From the NCBI GenBank assembly GCA_016180235.1, contig JACPBQ010000004.1, positions 1-34,939 on the forward strand: a DNA stretch of 34,939 nt, in the 5' to 3' direction. The notes under the pieces were generated by a model. The model saw only the letters and a program-made list of their open reading frames with translations, ran no database searches and was not told the origin of the DNA. The translations under genes were made by a program, and so were the position numbers. The stretch is from Candidatus Woesearchaeota archaeon (lineage in GTDB: Archaea > Nanobdellota > Nanobdellia > Woesearchaeales > GW2011-AR4). Within the stretch, counting starts at the first letter, position 1, and every line of letters begins with the position of its first letter. Shown piece by piece: positions 6,696 to 12,866 of the stretch.

Positions 6696-7307
6696 ATGAG
6701 CTTATCAGTTTTAGACTATTCAGTCCTTGTCATAATGGCAATAGTGCTGATTATAGGAGGCTATCAGTTCTATTTCTTCTGCCAGAGGCTTGTAATTATC
6801 AAAAGCAGGTCGCTCCATATTTTTATTGATGACTGGTTCCCTCTTTACCCCATATGGGTATGGATCTATACTGCCCTGTATTATCCAATGATAATCCTTG
6901 CGGTCTTCACTGTAAGCAGCATGGAGGAATTCAACTATATCGCGCTTAGCTTCATCATCCTGCTTTTCATGCACATGGCTGCATTTTTGCTTTTTCCGGT
7001 TGAGCTGCCAAAAAGCTGGAGACAGGGTGTTTCTGGCAAGAATCTCTCTGAAAGACTGCTAAAGATCGTGCACAAGATAGATGCCCCGTCCAACTGCTTC
7101 CCGAGCATGCACGTGAGCGTTGCAATGCTCACAGCCCTGCACATACTAAACAACCTGCCTTCCATAGGACTATGGATTTTCCTGTTTCCGCTTCTCACAG
7201 CTTTAAGCGCATTGTATACAAAACAGCATTATTTCCTTGATGTCATACCTGGCGCGTTTTTTGGCTGGATAGCCTTCAAAATATTCCAGCTGACCTATGC
7301 GGGATAA
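6696..7307 (+). CDS. PAP2-superfamily membrane phosphatase/phosphotransferase
   Basis: A 203-residue membrane protein with about six hydrophobic helices. PAP2 motif 2 appears as CFPSMHVS (Ser137, His139) and motif 3 as LYTKQHYFLDVIPG (His178, Asp182). The form PSMH with HYFLDV is typical of the branch related to inositol-phosphorylceramide synthase and sphingomyelin synthase, as well as of lipid phosphate phosphatases. The protein would act on a lipid phosphate or transfer a phospho-head group in the membrane. It is the first gene of a four-gene lipid operon, with psd starting 3 bp after its stop codon. The exact substrate is inferred only from context. Confidence 0.82.
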   Translation: MSLSVLDYSVLVIMAIVLIIGGYQFYFFCQRLVIIKSRSLHIFIDDWFPLYPIWVWIYTALYYPMIILAVFTVSSMEEFNYIALSFIILLFMHMAAFLLFPVELPKSWRQGVSGKNLSERLLKIVHKIDAPSNCFPSMHVSVAMLTALHILNNLPSIGLWIFLFPLLTALSALYTKQHYFLDVIPGAFFGWIAFKIFQLTYAG

Positions 7308-7310
7308 AGC

Positions 7311-7967
7311 ATGGCAAAAACGTTTATAAATTATGGCAGCTTATTGCTGATTATGGTCTGGATTGCGTCTTTTGCTGCCTTGATCTTTCTCCTATTTGTT
7401 GCCTTTCTTTTGAATTTCTACAGGGACCCAAAAAGAGAAATCCCAAGAGGCAGCAATATAGTCAGCCCTGCAGATGGCAGGATCATAAGGATTGTAAGGA
7501 CAAATTCCAATGAGGTGAGAATAAGCAAGGGCCTGTTCGGCAAGATAAGAACATTAACATCAGATATAGCAAAGGACTGCTACGTTATCTCTATCTTTAT
7601 GTCCCCGCTTGACGTGCATGTCAACAGGGCCCCCATAGATGGGCATGTTATTTCAAAAAAATACTCCAGAGGCAGGTTCTTCATGGCTTTTGACCTGGAG
7701 AGATCGCTTAACAATGAAAAAAACGAGATAGTAATAGAAAACGGCAAAATCGGGAAAATCAAGGTCATCCAGATCGCAGGTTTTCTGGCAAGGAGAATTA
7801 TCTGCAATGTGGGCAAAAACGAAAAAGTTAATAAAGGGCAAAAAATCGGCAGAATAGTGTTGGGGAGCCAGGTTACGATAGTATTGCCAGCCAAAAGTGT
7901 CAGGTTGAGAGCAAAAGAAAAACTTAAAGTAAAAGCAGGAACAACAATATTGGCCGAGGTAAAATGA
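7311..7967 (+). CDS. psd: Phosphatidylserine (archaetidylserine) decarboxylase proenzyme
   Basis: A 218-residue pyruvoyl enzyme that decarboxylates the serine lipid to the ethanolamine lipid. It is of the short archaeal/bacterial type with one N-terminal membrane segment (residues 10-35). Visible features: VSPADGRI with Asp55, MSPLDVHVNR with His103, and the self-cleavage site Leu184-Gly185-Ser186 in IVLGSQVTIVLP, where Ser would become the pyruvoyl group. These three residues form the known catalytic set of the family. The Arg after Ser that is common in the family (GSRV) is Gln here. The stop overlaps the next start codon as ATGA (7964-7967), indicating translational coupling. In an archaeon the substrate should be archaetidylserine. 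Confidence 0.92.
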   Translation: MAKTFINYGSLLLIMVWIASFAALIFLLFVAFLLNFYRDPKREIPRGSNIVSPADGRIIRIVRTNSNEVRISKGLFGKIRTLTSDIAKDCYVISIFMSPLDVHVNRAPIDGHVISKKYSRGRFFMAFDLERSLNNEKNEIVIENGKIGKIKVIQIAGFLARRIICNVGKNEKVNKGQKIGRIVLGSQVTIVLPAKSVRLRAKEKLKVKAGTTILAEVK

Positions 7968-8527
7968 ATTCAAAATTAAACTTTTTGGCTAACTATCTGA
8001 AAAAACCGAAAGAAGTTGCTGCGATTTTGCCAAGCTCAAAGTTTGTCATTGGAAGGATAAAGCGCCTGATAGATTTTGAAAAAGCCGACTGCATTGTTGA
8101 ATTCGGGCCTGGTACAGGCAGCGTAAGCAAGATGCTTCTAAGCAATATGAAGTCCAATGCAAAACTCCTATGCTTTGAAACAAACAACAGGTTCTGCTCT
8201 TACCTGAGGCAGAATTTTAGCGACAAAAGGATAACGATAATAAATGATTCCGCTGAAAACCTGGACATTCACCTGAAAAAACTGGATGCAGGCAGCGTGG
8301 ACTATTTTATTTCTTCGATACCCTTTACATTCCTGGACAAAAAAGCCAAAACCATGATTTTAAAAAAAGTAAGCAGCGAGCTGAAGCCAGGAAAGAGACT
8401 TATAGTATCCCAACAGTACAATCTGCACCTCAAAAAGTACCTGCTGGACTATTTTGACAAGGTCATTGTCGATATAGAGCTCAGGAATATACCTCCGTCA
8501 TTCATATATGTGTGTGATAAGGCATGA
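7964..8527 (+). CDS. Phospholipid N-methyltransferase-like protein (COG3963)
   Basis: A 187-residue SAM-dependent methyltransferase. The N-terminus LNFLANYLKKPKEVAAILPS is characteristic of the PmtA/COG3963 group, which binds the membrane with its N-terminal helix. SAM motif I is IVEFGPGTGSVS (Glu46, Gly48, Gly50, Gly52). The family is related to rRNA adenine dimethyltransferases. Its position between the decarboxylase and a CDP-alcohol transferase, with ATGA overlaps on both sides (7964-7967 and 8524-8527), strongly suggests that it methylates the ethanolamine head group of an archaeal lipid. That activity is an inference from family and context; the protein could instead methylate another small substrate. 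Confidence 0.82.
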   Translation: MNSKLNFLANYLKKPKEVAAILPSSKFVIGRIKRLIDFEKADCIVEFGPGTGSVSKMLLSNMKSNAKLLCFETNNRFCSYLRQNFSDKRITIINDSAENLDIHLKKLDAGSVDYFISSIPFTFLDKKAKTMILKKVSSELKPGKRLIVSQQYNLHLKKYLLDYFDKVIVDIELRNIPPSFIYVCDKA

Positions 8528-9561
8528 GAGCTGAAACCAAAAAAAACAGGATTTCTATAACTTTTATCTTGTTCAGGATAGTTTTATCTTTCATTCTTTT
8601 TTTCATAATGATTTCAGGAATCGGGAATATGGCCATCTTTTTGTTTTCACTGGCCGCATTTTTATCATTTTTTGAAATTTTCATATACAAAAAAAACAGG
8701 TCGCAGCTCAGGCCCATATTCAGCTCTTTGGCTGACAAGCTTCTTGTAAACCTGAGTGCAATAGCCCTGGTGCTGACAGGAGTAATCCCCACATGGGCAA
8801 TGCTGGTTTTCCTGGTCAGGGACCTCTTGACTATTGCCGGCGGAACCTATCTTTTTTACAAGGATATAAGGAGGGAATTCCATCCAACTACGATAGGAAA
8901 GATAACGCTTTTCTCGCAGGTCATTGCGCTTATGCCGGCAATTATTGGCCAAGTCGACTGGGTGCTGATGTATGCTGCGGCTGGCCTGACAGCCGTGTCT
9001 GCTGTAGAGCTTTTATTCAAGTCCGAGTTCAGGCCGGTAAAAAGGTCCGATATAAGCGACTTTTTCAGGATTACAAGCCTGGTAAAGTTCTCAGATGTTT
9101 TTACGCTGCTAAATGCCGTCTTTGGGCTGATGGCAATATTTTTTGTAATAAAAAACAGCTTTAATACTGCAGCAGTGTTCCTGATCTTGGCAGTCATTGC
9201 TGATTTTGCAGATGGCGCTGTTGCGAGAAAGCTCAATCAGCAAAATGTTTTCGGCAAGGAGCTTGATTCTTTGGCAGATACAATCTCTTTTGGCGTTGCG
9301 CCCGCGATATTCGGCTTTTCCCTGATACAAACGCCTTTGGCAATAGCTGCATTCGGAATATTCCTGTTTTGCGGCATATTAAGGCTTGCAAGGTACAATA
9401 TCATGCAAATAAAAGAAAGCTTTGAAGGGATGCCCATAACCCTCAACGGGATCATAATACCTGCGCTATTCTTTTTCAATGTCCCTGCAGACTTCTATCC
9501 CTACATATACATAGCATTGGCAATACTGATGGTGTCAAACATAAGGTTCAGGAAGATTTAG
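8524..9561 (+). CDS. Tandem CDP-alcohol phosphatidyltransferase, degenerate N-domain plus PssA-like C-domain
   Basis: A 345-residue membrane protein with two CDP-alcohol phosphatidyltransferase units. The C-terminal unit (about residues 170-345) has the full motif D-x2-DG-x2-AR-x8-G-x3-D-x3-D (Asp227, Asp230, Gly231, Arg235, Gly244, Asp248, Asp252). It most resembles phosphatidylserine synthases, with SDVFTLLNAVFG before it and SFGVAPA after it. The N-terminal unit (1-165) keeps the fold features ITFILFRIVLSF, SLADKLLVN and VRDLLTIAGG but has lost most catalytic aspartates. In the operon it would make archaetidylserine from CDP-archaeol and serine for the adjacent decarboxylase. The start overlaps the methyltransferase stop (ATGA). 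Specificity for serine is inferred from the operon. Confidence 0.85.
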   Translation: MRAETKKNRISITFILFRIVLSFILFFIMISGIGNMAIFLFSLAAFLSFFEIFIYKKNRSQLRPIFSSLADKLLVNLSAIALVLTGVIPTWAMLVFLVRDLLTIAGGTYLFYKDIRREFHPTTIGKITLFSQVIALMPAIIGQVDWVLMYAAAGLTAVSAVELLFKSEFRPVKRSDISDFFRITSLVKFSDVFTLLNAVFGLMAIFFVIKNSFNTAAVFLILAVIADFADGAVARKLNQQNVFGKELDSLADTISFGVAPAIFGFSLIQTPLAIAAFGIFLFCGILRLARYNIMQIKESFEGMPITLNGIIIPALFFFNVPADFYPYIYIALAILMVSNIRFRKI

Positions 9562-9655: not shown

Positions 9656-10105
9656 CTAGAATGCAAACAAAGAGCCGAACCATATCAGTACAATAAAATA
9701 CCAAAGCTTTCCAAGAGTAGAATAGAATAAAAATTTCCAGAATTTCATCCTCAATGTTCCCGCGATTACTATAAGCGGATCCCCAATAAAAGGCAGCCAA
9801 CTGAGCAGGAGAAGGCTTAAACCACCCCATCTGTCAAATATGGCCTCAGCTTTTTTTTGTTTCCTTGAGGGCTTTTTAATAAAGAATACCCTTATGCCTT
9901 TCAGCCCTATATAATAATTCACTATGCTGCCGAGTGAACTGCCAATAAGCGATGCAAAAAGCAGAGTATACGGGTCAAAATAATTCGCAGCCAGCAGAAT
10001 TGCAGCATCCGATGGCAAGGGGAGAACAGAGAATGACAAAAAAGTGCTGATTATAATTCCCAATATCCCATAATCAATCATTAAATTTGTGACATACTGC
10101 AGCAT
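9656..10105 (-). CDS. VTT-domain (YqaA/DedA-like) membrane protein
   Basis: A 149-residue integral membrane protein of the SNARE-associated/VTT family (PF09335), closest in size to YqaA (COG1238). Visible signatures: the N-terminal re-entrant segment SFSVLPLPSDAAILLAA, GSSLGSIVNYYIGLKG, and the distal RWGGLSLLLLSWLPFIGDPLIVIAGTLRM. Members of this family are linked to lipid scrambling or carrier recycling and to membrane homeostasis. It starts 1 bp after the stop of the double phosphatidyltransferase gene and is co-transcribed with it, which supports a lipid role. The short 94-bp gap to the convergent operon holds nothing obvious. Confidence 0.82.
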   Translation of the reverse strand: MLQYVTNLMIDYGILGIIISTFLSFSVLPLPSDAAILLAANYFDPYTLLFASLIGSSLGSIVNYYIGLKGIRVFFIKKPSRKQKKAEAIFDRWGGLSLLLLSWLPFIGDPLIVIAGTLRMKFWKFLFYSTLGKLWYFIVLIWFGSLFAF

Positions 10106-10106
10106 T

Positions 10107-11147
10107 CTATTTTTTCATCGATCCCGCTTTTTGGCTGTTTAAAACTTTGTAGATGTCTATGAACATATAAACATATGCCACTAACGCAACCAAAACAAGC
10201 ATCTCGAACCTGTAGATGAAGTTTATTATTATGGCTATAATGACGGCATAAGATACGCCGATAGTTATTTTTCCCAAAGGGCTCGAGCGCACCTCATTAT
10301 ACCGGGAAAAGTACATTGTTTTTGTCAGGGCCAGCGCTATGGAAGGAAACAAAAAAACCAGGACCCAGGAAAAATCCAGAAAGCCCATCAAGTAGAATGA
10401 AACTATAGTGGATATCACCAACGTAAAATCAGTAAAAGCGTCATATACCCGCCCAAATTTTGTAATCTGCTCCATCATTCTTGCTGATATACCATCCAGC
10501 TTATCCGACAAAACAATAATTGTAAAAACGACCAATGCAAAGTTCTTGTTTCCTTGAGACATGCTGATGAGGAACAAAGGGATGAGAAGAAGCCTGAAAG
10601 TAGTGATTATATTCGACAGATTAACCACATTTTCCCCCATCATCCTTCCCATCTTCACCAGGTAGTCTAATCCGGAAACAACAGTTATCAAAACTGCCAT
10701 AAGCATAAGCCACCAGTTGAACGGAATGTTAAGTATCACTGCCACAATAGCTATTATCTGGGATATTGTCTTTATCTTGCCGAGCATTGAAGCGGGTATG
10801 ACAACTTTCTTGGGCAAAAACAGGATTCTGGCTATGGTTATTATAAGTTCCCTTGCAATTATAACCACAGCCATCCAGAGCTCGATTCTTCCTATGAGAA
10901 ATACAAGTGCTGCAGCTATGAGCAGCTTGTCTGCTATAGGATCTATGATTTTGCCAATCTTCGTAGTTTGCTTATGCTTTCTCGCTATATAGCCGTCAAA
11001 AGCATCTGAAAGGGAAAGAATTATGAAAATAAAAGCTGAAATGTAGTCCTTATACGGCAAATCCGAAAGCAAGAAATAAACAAATATGGGTATCAGTAAA
11101 ACCCTTATAATTGTTATCTGGTTTGGCTTTGAAAAAAGCTCTTTCAT
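10107..11147 (-). CDS. Tandem CDP-alcohol phosphatidyltransferase with two intact catalytic motifs
   Basis: A 346-residue membrane protein that is an internal duplication. The N-terminal unit is PgsA-like: NQITIIRVLLIPIF, then the motif with Asp48, Asp51, Gly52, Arg56, Gly65, Asp69 and Asp73. The C-terminal unit repeats the pattern: NIITTFRLLLIPLF, then Asp215, Asp218, Gly219, Arg223, Gly232, Asp236 and Asp240, with the same x8 and x3 spacing. Both active sites therefore look complete. Enzymes of this family move a phosphatidyl or archaetidyl group from a CDP-lipid to an alcohol such as glycerol-phosphate or inositol-phosphate, and normally carry one motif per chain and work as dimers. It is first in an operon with the VTT protein. 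Acceptor unknown. Confidence 0.88.
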   Translation of the reverse strand: MKELFSKPNQITIIRVLLIPIFVYFLLSDLPYKDYISAFIFIILSLSDAFDGYIARKHKQTTKIGKIIDPIADKLLIAAALVFLIGRIELWMAVVIIARELIITIARILFLPKKVVIPASMLGKIKTISQIIAIVAVILNIPFNWWLMLMAVLITVVSGLDYLVKMGRMMGENVVNLSNIITTFRLLLIPLFLISMSQGNKNFALVVFTIIVLSDKLDGISARMMEQITKFGRVYDAFTDFTLVISTIVSFYLMGFLDFSWVLVFLFPSIALALTKTMYFSRYNEVRSSPLGKITIGVSYAVIIAIIINFIYRFEMLVLVALVAYVYMFIDIYKVLNSQKAGSMKK

Positions 11148-11207: not shown

Positions 11208-11867
11208 ATGCTAAAGTATGACATACATAACCATACGCACTACTCACCATGCAGCAATCTTAAGCCAGAAATTCTGCTTAAAGTAGCAAAGAAAAAGGGA
11301 TTTAACGGCATAGGGATTGTGGACCACCATACGATAAAAGGAGCTTTAAAAGTCAAAGGGATGAATAAAGACAAGGATTTTGAGGTGATTGTAGGCTCTG
11401 AGATAACGACAAACTACGGGGATGTCCTTTGCCTTTACATTAACAAGGATATAAAATCAAGGAATTTTTTTTCTTTGGTTGATGAGGTAAAGAAGCAGGA
11501 TGGCTTGATAATCATTCCGCACCCGTTCAGAAAATCATTAAACAAAAATCATACTTTTAAGATACCCATAGAAAAAATAAAGAATAAAATTGATGCTATA
11601 GAATGCTTCAATGCAAGGATGCTGCCTCTTGGAGACAATGAGAAAGCGCAGAGGCTTGCAAAAAAATTAAATATAGCCGGGACAGGTGGATCAGATGCGC
11701 ACTTTAGGTTTGAGATAGGGACCGGCTGGACAACCTTTGAAGGCAATTTCAGGAAAGCATTAAAAAGGAAGGAGACAAAATACCACGGAAGGATATTTTT
11801 AGGGCCTTTTGGAGGGCTTTTGAGCTATTTGAGGAACAGGCTGCGTTTGTACAAAATTCCAGAATAA
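11208..11867 (+). CDS. PHP-domain phosphoesterase
   Basis: A 219-residue protein of the polymerase-and-histidinol-phosphatase family. The metal-binding motifs are all visible: DIHNHTHYSPCS (His-x-His) at the N-terminus, GIVDHHTIKG, the IIPHPFRKS strand, and C-terminal GTGGSDAHFRFEIG. It is a predicted trinuclear metal phosphoesterase; 3',5'-nucleoside phosphate or sugar phosphate substrates are typical of stand-alone members. It begins leaderless or nearly so behind a CTTTATAAT box (11178-11186). carS starts 1 bp after its stop, so the two are co-transcribed, but no direct metabolic link is evident. Confidence 0.85.
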   Translation: MLKYDIHNHTHYSPCSNLKPEILLKVAKKKGFNGIGIVDHHTIKGALKVKGMNKDKDFEVIVGSEITTNYGDVLCLYINKDIKSRNFFSLVDEVKKQDGLIIIPHPFRKSLNKNHTFKIPIEKIKNKIDAIECFNARMLPLGDNEKAQRLAKKLNIAGTGGSDAHFRFEIGTGWTTFEGNFRKALKRKETKYHGRIFLGPFGGLLSYLRNRLRLYKIPE

Positions 11868-11868
11868 A

Positions 11869-12405
11869 ATGGCAAACATAATTTTGCAGTGCTTTTACTT
11901 CATGCTGCCGGTATATTTTGCCAACATGGCCCCGGTCATAGCGAAAAAAATCAATTTTCTTAAATTTCCGATAGATTTTGGAAGGGAAATAAAGAACAAG
12001 CCCATATTAGGAAAAAATAAAACTTTCCGGGGCTTGTTTTTCGGCGTTATTTTTGCAATTATAATTTCCTATATTCAATATTACCTGTATAAAAACGGCA
12101 TTTTATTTGATTTGGCCATGATTGACTATTCCAGCTGGCTGTTATTGGGCTTTTTGATGGGCTTTGGCGCGATTTTTGGGGATTTGGTAAAGAGCTTTTT
12201 TAAAAGAAGATTGGGTTACGAGCCTGGAAAGCCATTCGTGCCGTGGGACCAGACCGATTTTGTCATCGGGGCATTAATATTCCTGTTTCCAATAGTAAAA
12301 TTGCCGATAGATAAGATAATGATAATAATTATTTTGAGCTTTATACTGCATATTATCGTGAATCATCTGGCTTTTTACACCGGCGTAAGGAAAGAGAAAT
12401 GGTAG
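11869..12405 (+). CDS. carS: CDP-archaeol synthase
   Basis: A 178-residue membrane enzyme (PF01864, formerly DUF46) that activates digeranylgeranylglyceryl phosphate with CTP to make CDP-archaeol, the common donor for archaeal phospholipid synthesis. Signatures: ANMAPVIAKK near the N-terminus, ILGKNKTFRG, GAIFGDLVKSFFKRRLG and the acidic PWDQTDFVIGAL. About five transmembrane segments alternate with these cytoplasmic motifs. Length is normal. It lies downstream of the PHP gene and close to the CDP-alcohol transferases that would use its product. Its 3' end overlaps a convergent membrane-protein gene by 31 bp. Confidence 0.93.
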   Translation: MANIILQCFYFMLPVYFANMAPVIAKKINFLKFPIDFGREIKNKPILGKNKTFRGLFFGVIFAIIISYIQYYLYKNGILFDLAMIDYSSWLLLGFLMGFGAIFGDLVKSFFKRRLGYEPGKPFVPWDQTDFVIGALIFLFPIVKLPIDKIMIIIILSFILHIIVNHLAFYTGVRKEKW

Positions 12406-12866
12406 TTGATTAATAGGTATAATGACAGTGCAGGAACGAAAAACCACAGGTTCCTGACAAAGATTTCCACATAATTTCTTTTTTTATAATCAAATAATAA
12501 TGAGGCTGCTGGGATGCCGTATAAAAATATCAGTGTGGATTCTATTGCAAATAAATCCGTTATTTTGCTGCTTAGGAAAAATATTATTCCCAGGAGGAAA
12601 TAAACCAATGCGGATTTTTCCAGCCTTAATTTTCCAGCTGCAATGATTATGCCTATAAATAACAAAGCTGATAGTGCCAAGATGACATTAATTCTGTAAT
12701 AAAACAGCAAGAAGGCTATCATGAGAAAAAATATTATTTTTTTGATCAGGATGAAGTATTTTCTCCCGGGCTTCTGCTCTTCCGGAGCCATCTTAATGAG
12801 CATTATCCCGGCTAATAGGCCAATATAGGAGATTATAGAAGCCAAAAAGTAGTTTATTATCTGCAT
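12375..12866 (-). CDS. Uncharacterised polytopic membrane protein
   Basis: A 163-residue protein with about five to six hydrophobic helices, separated by short charged loops such as KMAPEEQKPGRKYF and FDYKKRNYVEI. I do not recognise the family and see no catalytic motif. It starts 2 bp after the rpiB stop codon, so it is the last gene of that operon. Its 3' end overlaps carS by 31 bp on the opposite strand. A lipid or envelope role is conceivable from the neighbourhood but not shown by the sequence. Confidence 0.65.
   Translation of the reverse strand: MQIINYFLASIISYIGLLAGIMLIKMAPEEQKPGRKYFILIKKIIFFLMIAFLLFYYRINVILALSALLFIGIIIAAGKLRLEKSALVYFLLGIIFFLSSKITDLFAIESTLIFLYGIPAASLLFDYKKRNYVEIFVRNLWFFVPALSLYLLINYHFSFLTPV

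Follow-up and report, generated by a model that had tools for sequence, protein, structure and literature searches.

A woesearchaeal double CDP-alcohol phosphotransferase joins a bacterial-type PgsA to an unlike paralogue and probably attaches two different head groups

What can a single polypeptide do with two active sites of a superfamily whose enzymes are usually single-domain homodimers? The question is raised by a gene in a stretch of 34,939 nucleotides from a Candidatus Woesearchaeota archaeon (contig JACPBQ010000004.1; hereafter the window), which lies on the minus strand at positions 10107-11147, starts with an ATG at 11147 and encodes 346 amino acids, the plus strand of the same segment being interrupted by many stops. 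A preliminary description had proposed that the protein carries two full copies of the motif D-x2-DG-x2-AR-x8-G-x3-D-x3-D, each preceded by a matching helix, and this observation is confirmed: residues 48-73 (DAFDGYIARKHKQTTKIGKIIDPIAD; positions 10929-11006) and 215-240 (DKLDGISARMMEQITKFGRVYDAFTD; positions 10428-10505) both fit the motif exactly, and an R-(V/L)LLIP helix starts at R15 and at R185. The whole protein is matched twice by Pfam PF01066 (222 bits; cut-off 22), and a search half by half, of the kind that the description had proposed, finds the domain once in the N half (residues 1-170, positions 10638-11147; 147 bits) and once in the C half (residues 172-346, positions 10110-10634; 87.5 bits), which is termed X hereafter. 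By motif and by PF01066 above its cut-off, both halves thus belong to the CDP-alcohol phosphotransferase superfamily. A BLOSUM62 alignment of one half with the other scores 174, against 38 +/- 6.5 (maximum 78) in 300 shuffles. Among 25 intact homologues, all eight positions of the first motif are invariant; in the second, D, D, G, G, D and D are found in 25/25, A in 24/25 and R in 23/25 (the AR pair reads S-R, A-K or A-S in three sequences), and six of the eight positions fall within the only 16 invariant columns of 165 in the C half (hypergeometric p 8e-6). The alignment score and these invariant columns place the double motif far beyond chance.

An assembly error joining two genes was considered as the source of the double frame, and is excluded by the distribution of the gene. 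The fusion protein was searched for in 59 genomes, 36 of which, including that of the window, belong to the same family (f1). An intact full-length PgsA-X fusion is present in 25 of these 36; it is cut by a contig end in G020, its frame is broken in G027 and G035, G004 has the PgsA half only, and no fusion was found in the other seven. In G004, X was looked for and none was found, so that X is dispensable in that genome. The seven include G001, which is 96% complete and the sole other genome of the genus that was searched; it lacks both the fusion and the CDP-archaeol synthase CarS, and its single weak PF01066 match (L164) is surrounded by sugar genes. The junction between the halves is open in 25/25 sequences of the alignment of intact fusions (A1, which omits the four incomplete cases and the seven genomes without a match), and an unfused, overlapping pair of the same genes occurs in another family; the frame retained in 25 of 36 genomes is consequently no artefact. 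The window's own genome (81% complete) has only four PF01066 domains, all within two adjacent double proteins. Across the order, two PF01066 domains in one frame occur in 6 of 116 genomes (G000, G002, G048, G062, G091 and G122), any match at all being found in 68. In the phylum of Orenia (119 genomes, 99 with PF01066), no frame longer than 272 amino acids occurs among the matches listed, so that no bacterial double protein was seen there. A profile scan of contigs returned 80 loci, two of which are Candidatus Woesearchaeota MAGs with double proteins (L039, PgsA-X; L036, with a second arrangement, Y-PgsA, described below), the others being bacterial single-domain matches by their titles; a contig scan with the fusion protein as the single query gave no match. 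As to whether fused forms are already common and characterised in the lineage, a point left open by the preliminary description, they are common there, and no characterised case, indeed no printed account of such double proteins, was found in the literature searched, a search that had most subscription papers outside its reach. The fusion is a real, conserved, lineage-specific double enzyme composed of two unlike paralogues.

The N half is readily assigned. It scores 144.6 bits with TIGR00560 (pgsA), above the curated cut-off of 109.1, and in a predicted model of the fusion (pLDDT 81.8, pTM 0.65; 12 helices, six in each half) it superposes on SaPgsA (7drj_B) with a Z of 21.2 and an rmsd of 2.1 over 163 aligned residues at 44% identity. 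The acceptor residues K74, R99, E100, T104, R107, K126, T127 and Q130 are each retained in 25/25 homologues, as in bacterial PgsA, and in a tree of 94 domains (picked from 152 plus 10 added, with the duplicate G217, the genome of L036, still in) the N halves sit in the bacterial-type PgsA clade (support 99/93). On sequence grounds, the N half counts as a complete bacterial-type PgsA and is predicted to use a glycerol phosphate as its acceptor; the stereospecificity of archaeal enzymes for G1P or G3P is given as unreported in PMC9385802. The N half shares with PgsA (SaPgsA, PDB 7drj/7drk) the motif, the acceptor residues and the fold, but PgsA is a single-domain homodimer, whereas in the fusion it is paired, within one chain, with an unlike paralogue.

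The C half retains one side of the active site and has lost the other. In the numbering of M. tuberculosis PIP synthase, given in square brackets (from PMC6506517 and PMC9385802; the acceptor assignment is from our own alignment), its CDP and metal site comprises N179[D31], T182[T34], D215[D68], D218[D71], G219[G72], A222[A75], R223[R76], T229[T82], G232[G85], D236[D89] and D240[D93]. Over the 25 sequences, the mean frequency of the most common residue at these 11 positions is 0.989, as compared with 0.626 for the whole half, and none of 100,000 random draws was as high; invariance in 25/25 extends to all four aspartates, the two glycines and the N, T and T that contact the base. Both halves are therefore under strong constraint at their donor sites, as expected of the two sites proposed in the preliminary description. 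At the nine positions equivalent to acceptor residues, the mean in X is 0.733, which is not above chance (8% of draws). In X, K74[R94] is replaced by W, F, S or G, R99 by P, E100 by S or A and K126 by S, A or T, while the counterpart of R107 stays basic (K276; 24/25 K and one R); the residue comparison with reference proteins covered 14 of the 25 fusions, with one duplicate removed (G217). The residue following the fourth aspartate is K in 25/25 N halves and W (21), F (2), S (1) or G (1) in the C halves. This position is described as always K or R in PMC6506517; among the reference proteins it is K in 18/18 bacterial PgsA, R in one ClsA, one PIPS and one AIPS-like protein, and non-basic in 13/13 PssA, although a non-basic residue here is no proof of a non-phosphorylated acceptor. 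With its CDP and metal site kept and the PgsA acceptor set lost, X is expected, on these residues, to bind metal and a CDP-lipid, whereas a phosphorylated acceptor should not be held in the known way.

Comparison with the named families leaves X outside all of them. Among the NCBIfam models reached, it passes no cut-off, its best scores being 52.3 bits with pgsA (TIGR00560; cut-off 109.1) and 50.2 bits with ClsA (Cls_cap, NF053678; cut-off 240). As a PgsA it fails on score and on the replacement of K74, R99, E100, K126 and Q130. A serine enzyme is ruled out by 19.7 bits with PssA (TIGR00473; cut-off 107), a typical ClsA by its score, and an inositol enzyme of the PIPS/AIPS type by scores below the family cut-offs, by a non-basic residue following the fourth aspartate and by the lack of an R155 equivalent. 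The CDP-lipid site is common to X and ClsA, but the RD and GK..T pattern of the latter is absent from X. In the predicted model, the C half superposes best on the PIP synthase of R. salmoninarum (RsPIPS, 5d92_B; Z 15.4, rmsd 3.3, 167 aligned residues, 20% identity), in a type of search that is unable to exclude other families. Both halves therefore have a fold like that of known homodimeric enzymes, in line with the preliminary description, and X shares with RsPIPS and MtPgsA1 (6h59; Z 14.1, 18% identity) the same six-helix fold and a complete CDP and metal site, but not the residues that hold inositol phosphate. In the tree, X forms a clade distinct from PgsA (95/86), which contains the C halves together with single-gene proteins of other families. 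A tree constrained to unite the two halves in a single clade is worse by 55 log units (p-AU 0.013; the group tested was chosen after a first tree was seen), which leads us to reject a recent internal duplication and indicates that two different genes were joined rather than one doubled. The phylogeny of both halves that the preliminary description had called for thus bears out its suggestion of paralogues, which, given the differing acceptor residues, are probably of different specificity.

The sequence supplies the domains, the residues, their conservation and the joining of genes; on these it seems probable that one fusion chain attaches two different membrane-lipid head groups. We regard it as an even call that one chain here replaces the usual homodimer, combining a PgsA site with another CDP-lipid site whose acceptor differs and is probably not phosphorylated. 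In such a scheme, CarS (encoded at 11869-12405) would make CDP-archaeol, the donor for both sites. The N site would place the phosphoarchaeol moiety on a glycerol phosphate and so form archaetidylglycerol phosphate, and the C site, if X is catalytic, would transfer it to a different and probably non-phosphorylated acceptor, or possibly to water, in a hydrolysis. Solved homologues dimerise through TM3 and TM4, and the partner chain lines the acceptor pocket (PMC6506517, which names R137 and Y133, and PMC8633023). By analogy with these homodimers, the X half would probably line the acceptor pocket of PgsA and vice versa across TM3/TM4, although the pTM of 0.65 does not fix the arrangement of the halves. 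Since each half has six helices, the active faces would point the same way, placing both sites on one cytosolic face, and the fusion would fix a 1:1 pair already favoured by separate overlapping genes. A more specific form of this scheme, in which the protein is an obligate single-chain heterodimer of two live CDP-lipid phosphotransferases with different acceptors, that of X being used by no known family, is put forward only tentatively. The acceptor pocket of CDP-alcohol phosphotransferases is believed to be formed jointly by the two chains of the dimer, but the two sites of a homodimer are genetically inseparable; in a natural one-chain heterodimer with a separate-gene relative, the sites can be switched off singly and the contribution of the partner can be asked. 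PgsA-X may also carry out a head-group reaction not known before.

Fusion of a CDP-alcohol phosphotransferase membrane domain to a second part is also known from A. fulgidus IPCT-DIPPS (4mnd) and AF2299 (4o6m). In these, however, the second part is not another CDP-alcohol phosphotransferase, as it is in PgsA-X, but a soluble nucleotidyltransferase-type domain.

A doubtful alternative is that X is non-catalytic or nearly so, and holds CDP-lipid and metal, its role being to stabilise the PgsA half or to regulate it, with only the N site turning over. The lost acceptor residues would suit such a partner, as would the faster evolution of X (mean pairwise identity 48%, versus 63% for the N half) and the persistence of PgsA alone in G004. 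Furthermore, an inactive half has been retained in this lineage, in the product of the convergent neighbouring gene (positions 8524-9561, plus strand), a second double protein with an inactive PgsA-like N half and an archaetidylserine synthase (PssA) C half. Of the motif in its N half, the first and second aspartates and the second glycine are gone, although a good part of a PgsA/ClsA-like acceptor side survives there; the C half is an intact PssA (136.6 bits; cut-off 107). In its own predicted model (pLDDT 77.9, pTM 0.73), the C half matches MjPSS (Z 19.3, rmsd 2.6, 158 aligned residues) and the N half still matches SaPgsA (Z 18.3, rmsd 2.1, 157 aligned residues), so that activity cannot be read from a retained fold by itself; the same dead half-PssA arrangement recurs in 20 further proteins of family f1 and in G091 (L144) (alignment A2). 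Unlike this dead half, however, X keeps all of its aspartates, glycines and base-contacting residues in every sequence, and X is encoded by itself in some genomes, in one of which (G047) the fusion-protein search found no PgsA-like match.

It is improbable, though it would account for near-equal scores with ClsA and PgsA, that X is cardiolipin-synthase-like, such that the product of the N half, once converted to archaetidylglycerol by a PAP2 or PHP phosphatase, would be joined to a second CDP-archaeol in two successive transfers. The standalone X proteins of G047, G168 and G185 score 57-62 bits with ClsA, and a PAP2 gene overlaps X in G168. All of these scores are nevertheless far from the cut-off of 240, and in a true ClsA (Oerskovia, 251.9 bits) the fourth aspartate is followed by R, with RD and GK..T further downstream, none of which X has; the genome in addition encodes a possible cardiolipin producer, a protein with two PLD domains, and the reading suits the Y-PgsA fusion better than X. 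Very improbable is the pairing suggested in the preliminary description, by which X is of the inositol-phosphate type (AIPS/PIPS) and the protein makes archaetidylglycerol phosphate and archaetidylinositol phosphate: despite the RsPIPS match and an inositol-phosphate synthase gene that adjoins the fusion on the same contig in G017, it fits poorly because X lacks the phosphate-holding residues, an equivalent of K126 included, and only two of the 36 family genomes yielded the synthase, in one of them beside the fusion, while the window's genome (81% complete) did not; X moreover scores 28.9 and 26.3 bits against cut-offs of 170 and 180, and a separate AIPS-like gene adjoins the fusion in G018 (136.9 bits; cut-off 180).

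Relatives outside family f1 bear on how the two-site protein arose. In G347 (family f57), one strand carries PgsA (L238:5913-6434) and X (L238:6427-6942) as distinct genes, in the order of the fusion and with an 8-base overlap, which is apparently the unfused state; the placement of this X in the tree has middling support (94/84). Single X genes are found among unrelated genes in G047 and G185, and beside PAP2, glycosyltransferase and PHP genes in G168; the neighbours in these three genomes give no firm name for the acceptor. In G062 (family f28), the PgsA-X fusion adjoins CarS. A fusion in the reverse order, Y-PgsA, is present in five genomes of family f14 (G048, G122, G217, G266 and G308; Y-PgsA loci of the family are L036, L115, L117, L244, L245 and L246) and adjoins CarS in 4/4 of those with flanks examined. 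By the tree, Y is neither X nor PgsA, and the halves of Y-PgsA do not form one clade (p-AU 0.009). Y keeps the CDP site and scores 101.2 bits with ClsA, with which it shares the RD/GK..T pattern; with such a ClsA-like acceptor side, Y-PgsA might couple archaetidylglycerol synthesis to a cardiolipin-type step. A search with Streptomyces Cls_cap had retrieved hypothetical Woesearchaeota proteins, as stated in PMC8141893. Fusion of such enzymes seems to have happened independently three times or more in Woesearchaeota (PgsA-X, Y-PgsA and the dead half-PssA protein), perhaps as a way to dress host-scavenged lipids with several head groups from minimal machinery.

The genes around the fusion are largely those of lipid head-group metabolism. 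A VTT/DedA-type membrane protein gene (9656-10105, minus strand; PF09335, 62.8 bits) starts one base past the stop of the fusion gene and is likely to be co-transcribed with it. On the plus strand, a run from 6696 to 9561 comprises genes for a PAP2-type lipid phosphatase (6696-7307; PF14378, 56 bits), a phosphatidylserine/archaetidylserine decarboxylase (Psd; 7311-7967; PF02666, 155 bits), a methyltransferase resembling the lipid N-methyltransferases OlsG and PmtA (7964-8527; 87.4 bits with OlsG, cut-off 350, and 64.2 bits with PmtA, cut-off 250) and, last, the PssA double protein; the genes nearly touch or overlap, that of the methyltransferase overlapping each neighbour by 4 bases. Gene content of this kind suggests an operon leading to archaetidylethanolamine, and perhaps to N-methylated (choline-like) head groups in an archaeon. 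Divergent from the fusion, on the plus strand, lie a PHP-type metal-dependent phosphoesterase gene (11208-11867; PF13263, 53 bits; PF02811, 37.2 bits), whose product is a candidate for the missing head-group phosphatase, and carS (11869-12405; PF01864, 133.7 bits; NF003114, 156 bits, cut-off 148). A gene of similar appearance stands beside CarS and Y-PgsA in G048 (L247), and the PHP gene of G168 lies near its single X (L240).

CarS is present in 29 of the 36 family f1 genomes, and GGGPS, an enzyme of the archaeal lipid backbone, is above its cut-off in none of them. GGGPS and DGGGPS were already reported missing in Woesearchaeota subgroup J (PMC8421398). The G1PDH model PF13685 exceeds its cut-off in 17 of the 36; it also matches bacterial controls such as E. 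coli, and the count therefore decides nothing about G1PDH. Head-group machinery of this kind alongside no recognisable backbone pathway would fit lipid scavenging, and PgsA-X bears on how DPANN archaea without such a pathway produce polar lipids of their own. At the end of carS, the minus strand encodes a membrane protein with no Pfam match (12375-12866), lookalikes of which adjoin RpiB and CarS at loci of families f28 and f14 (L242 and L244-L247).
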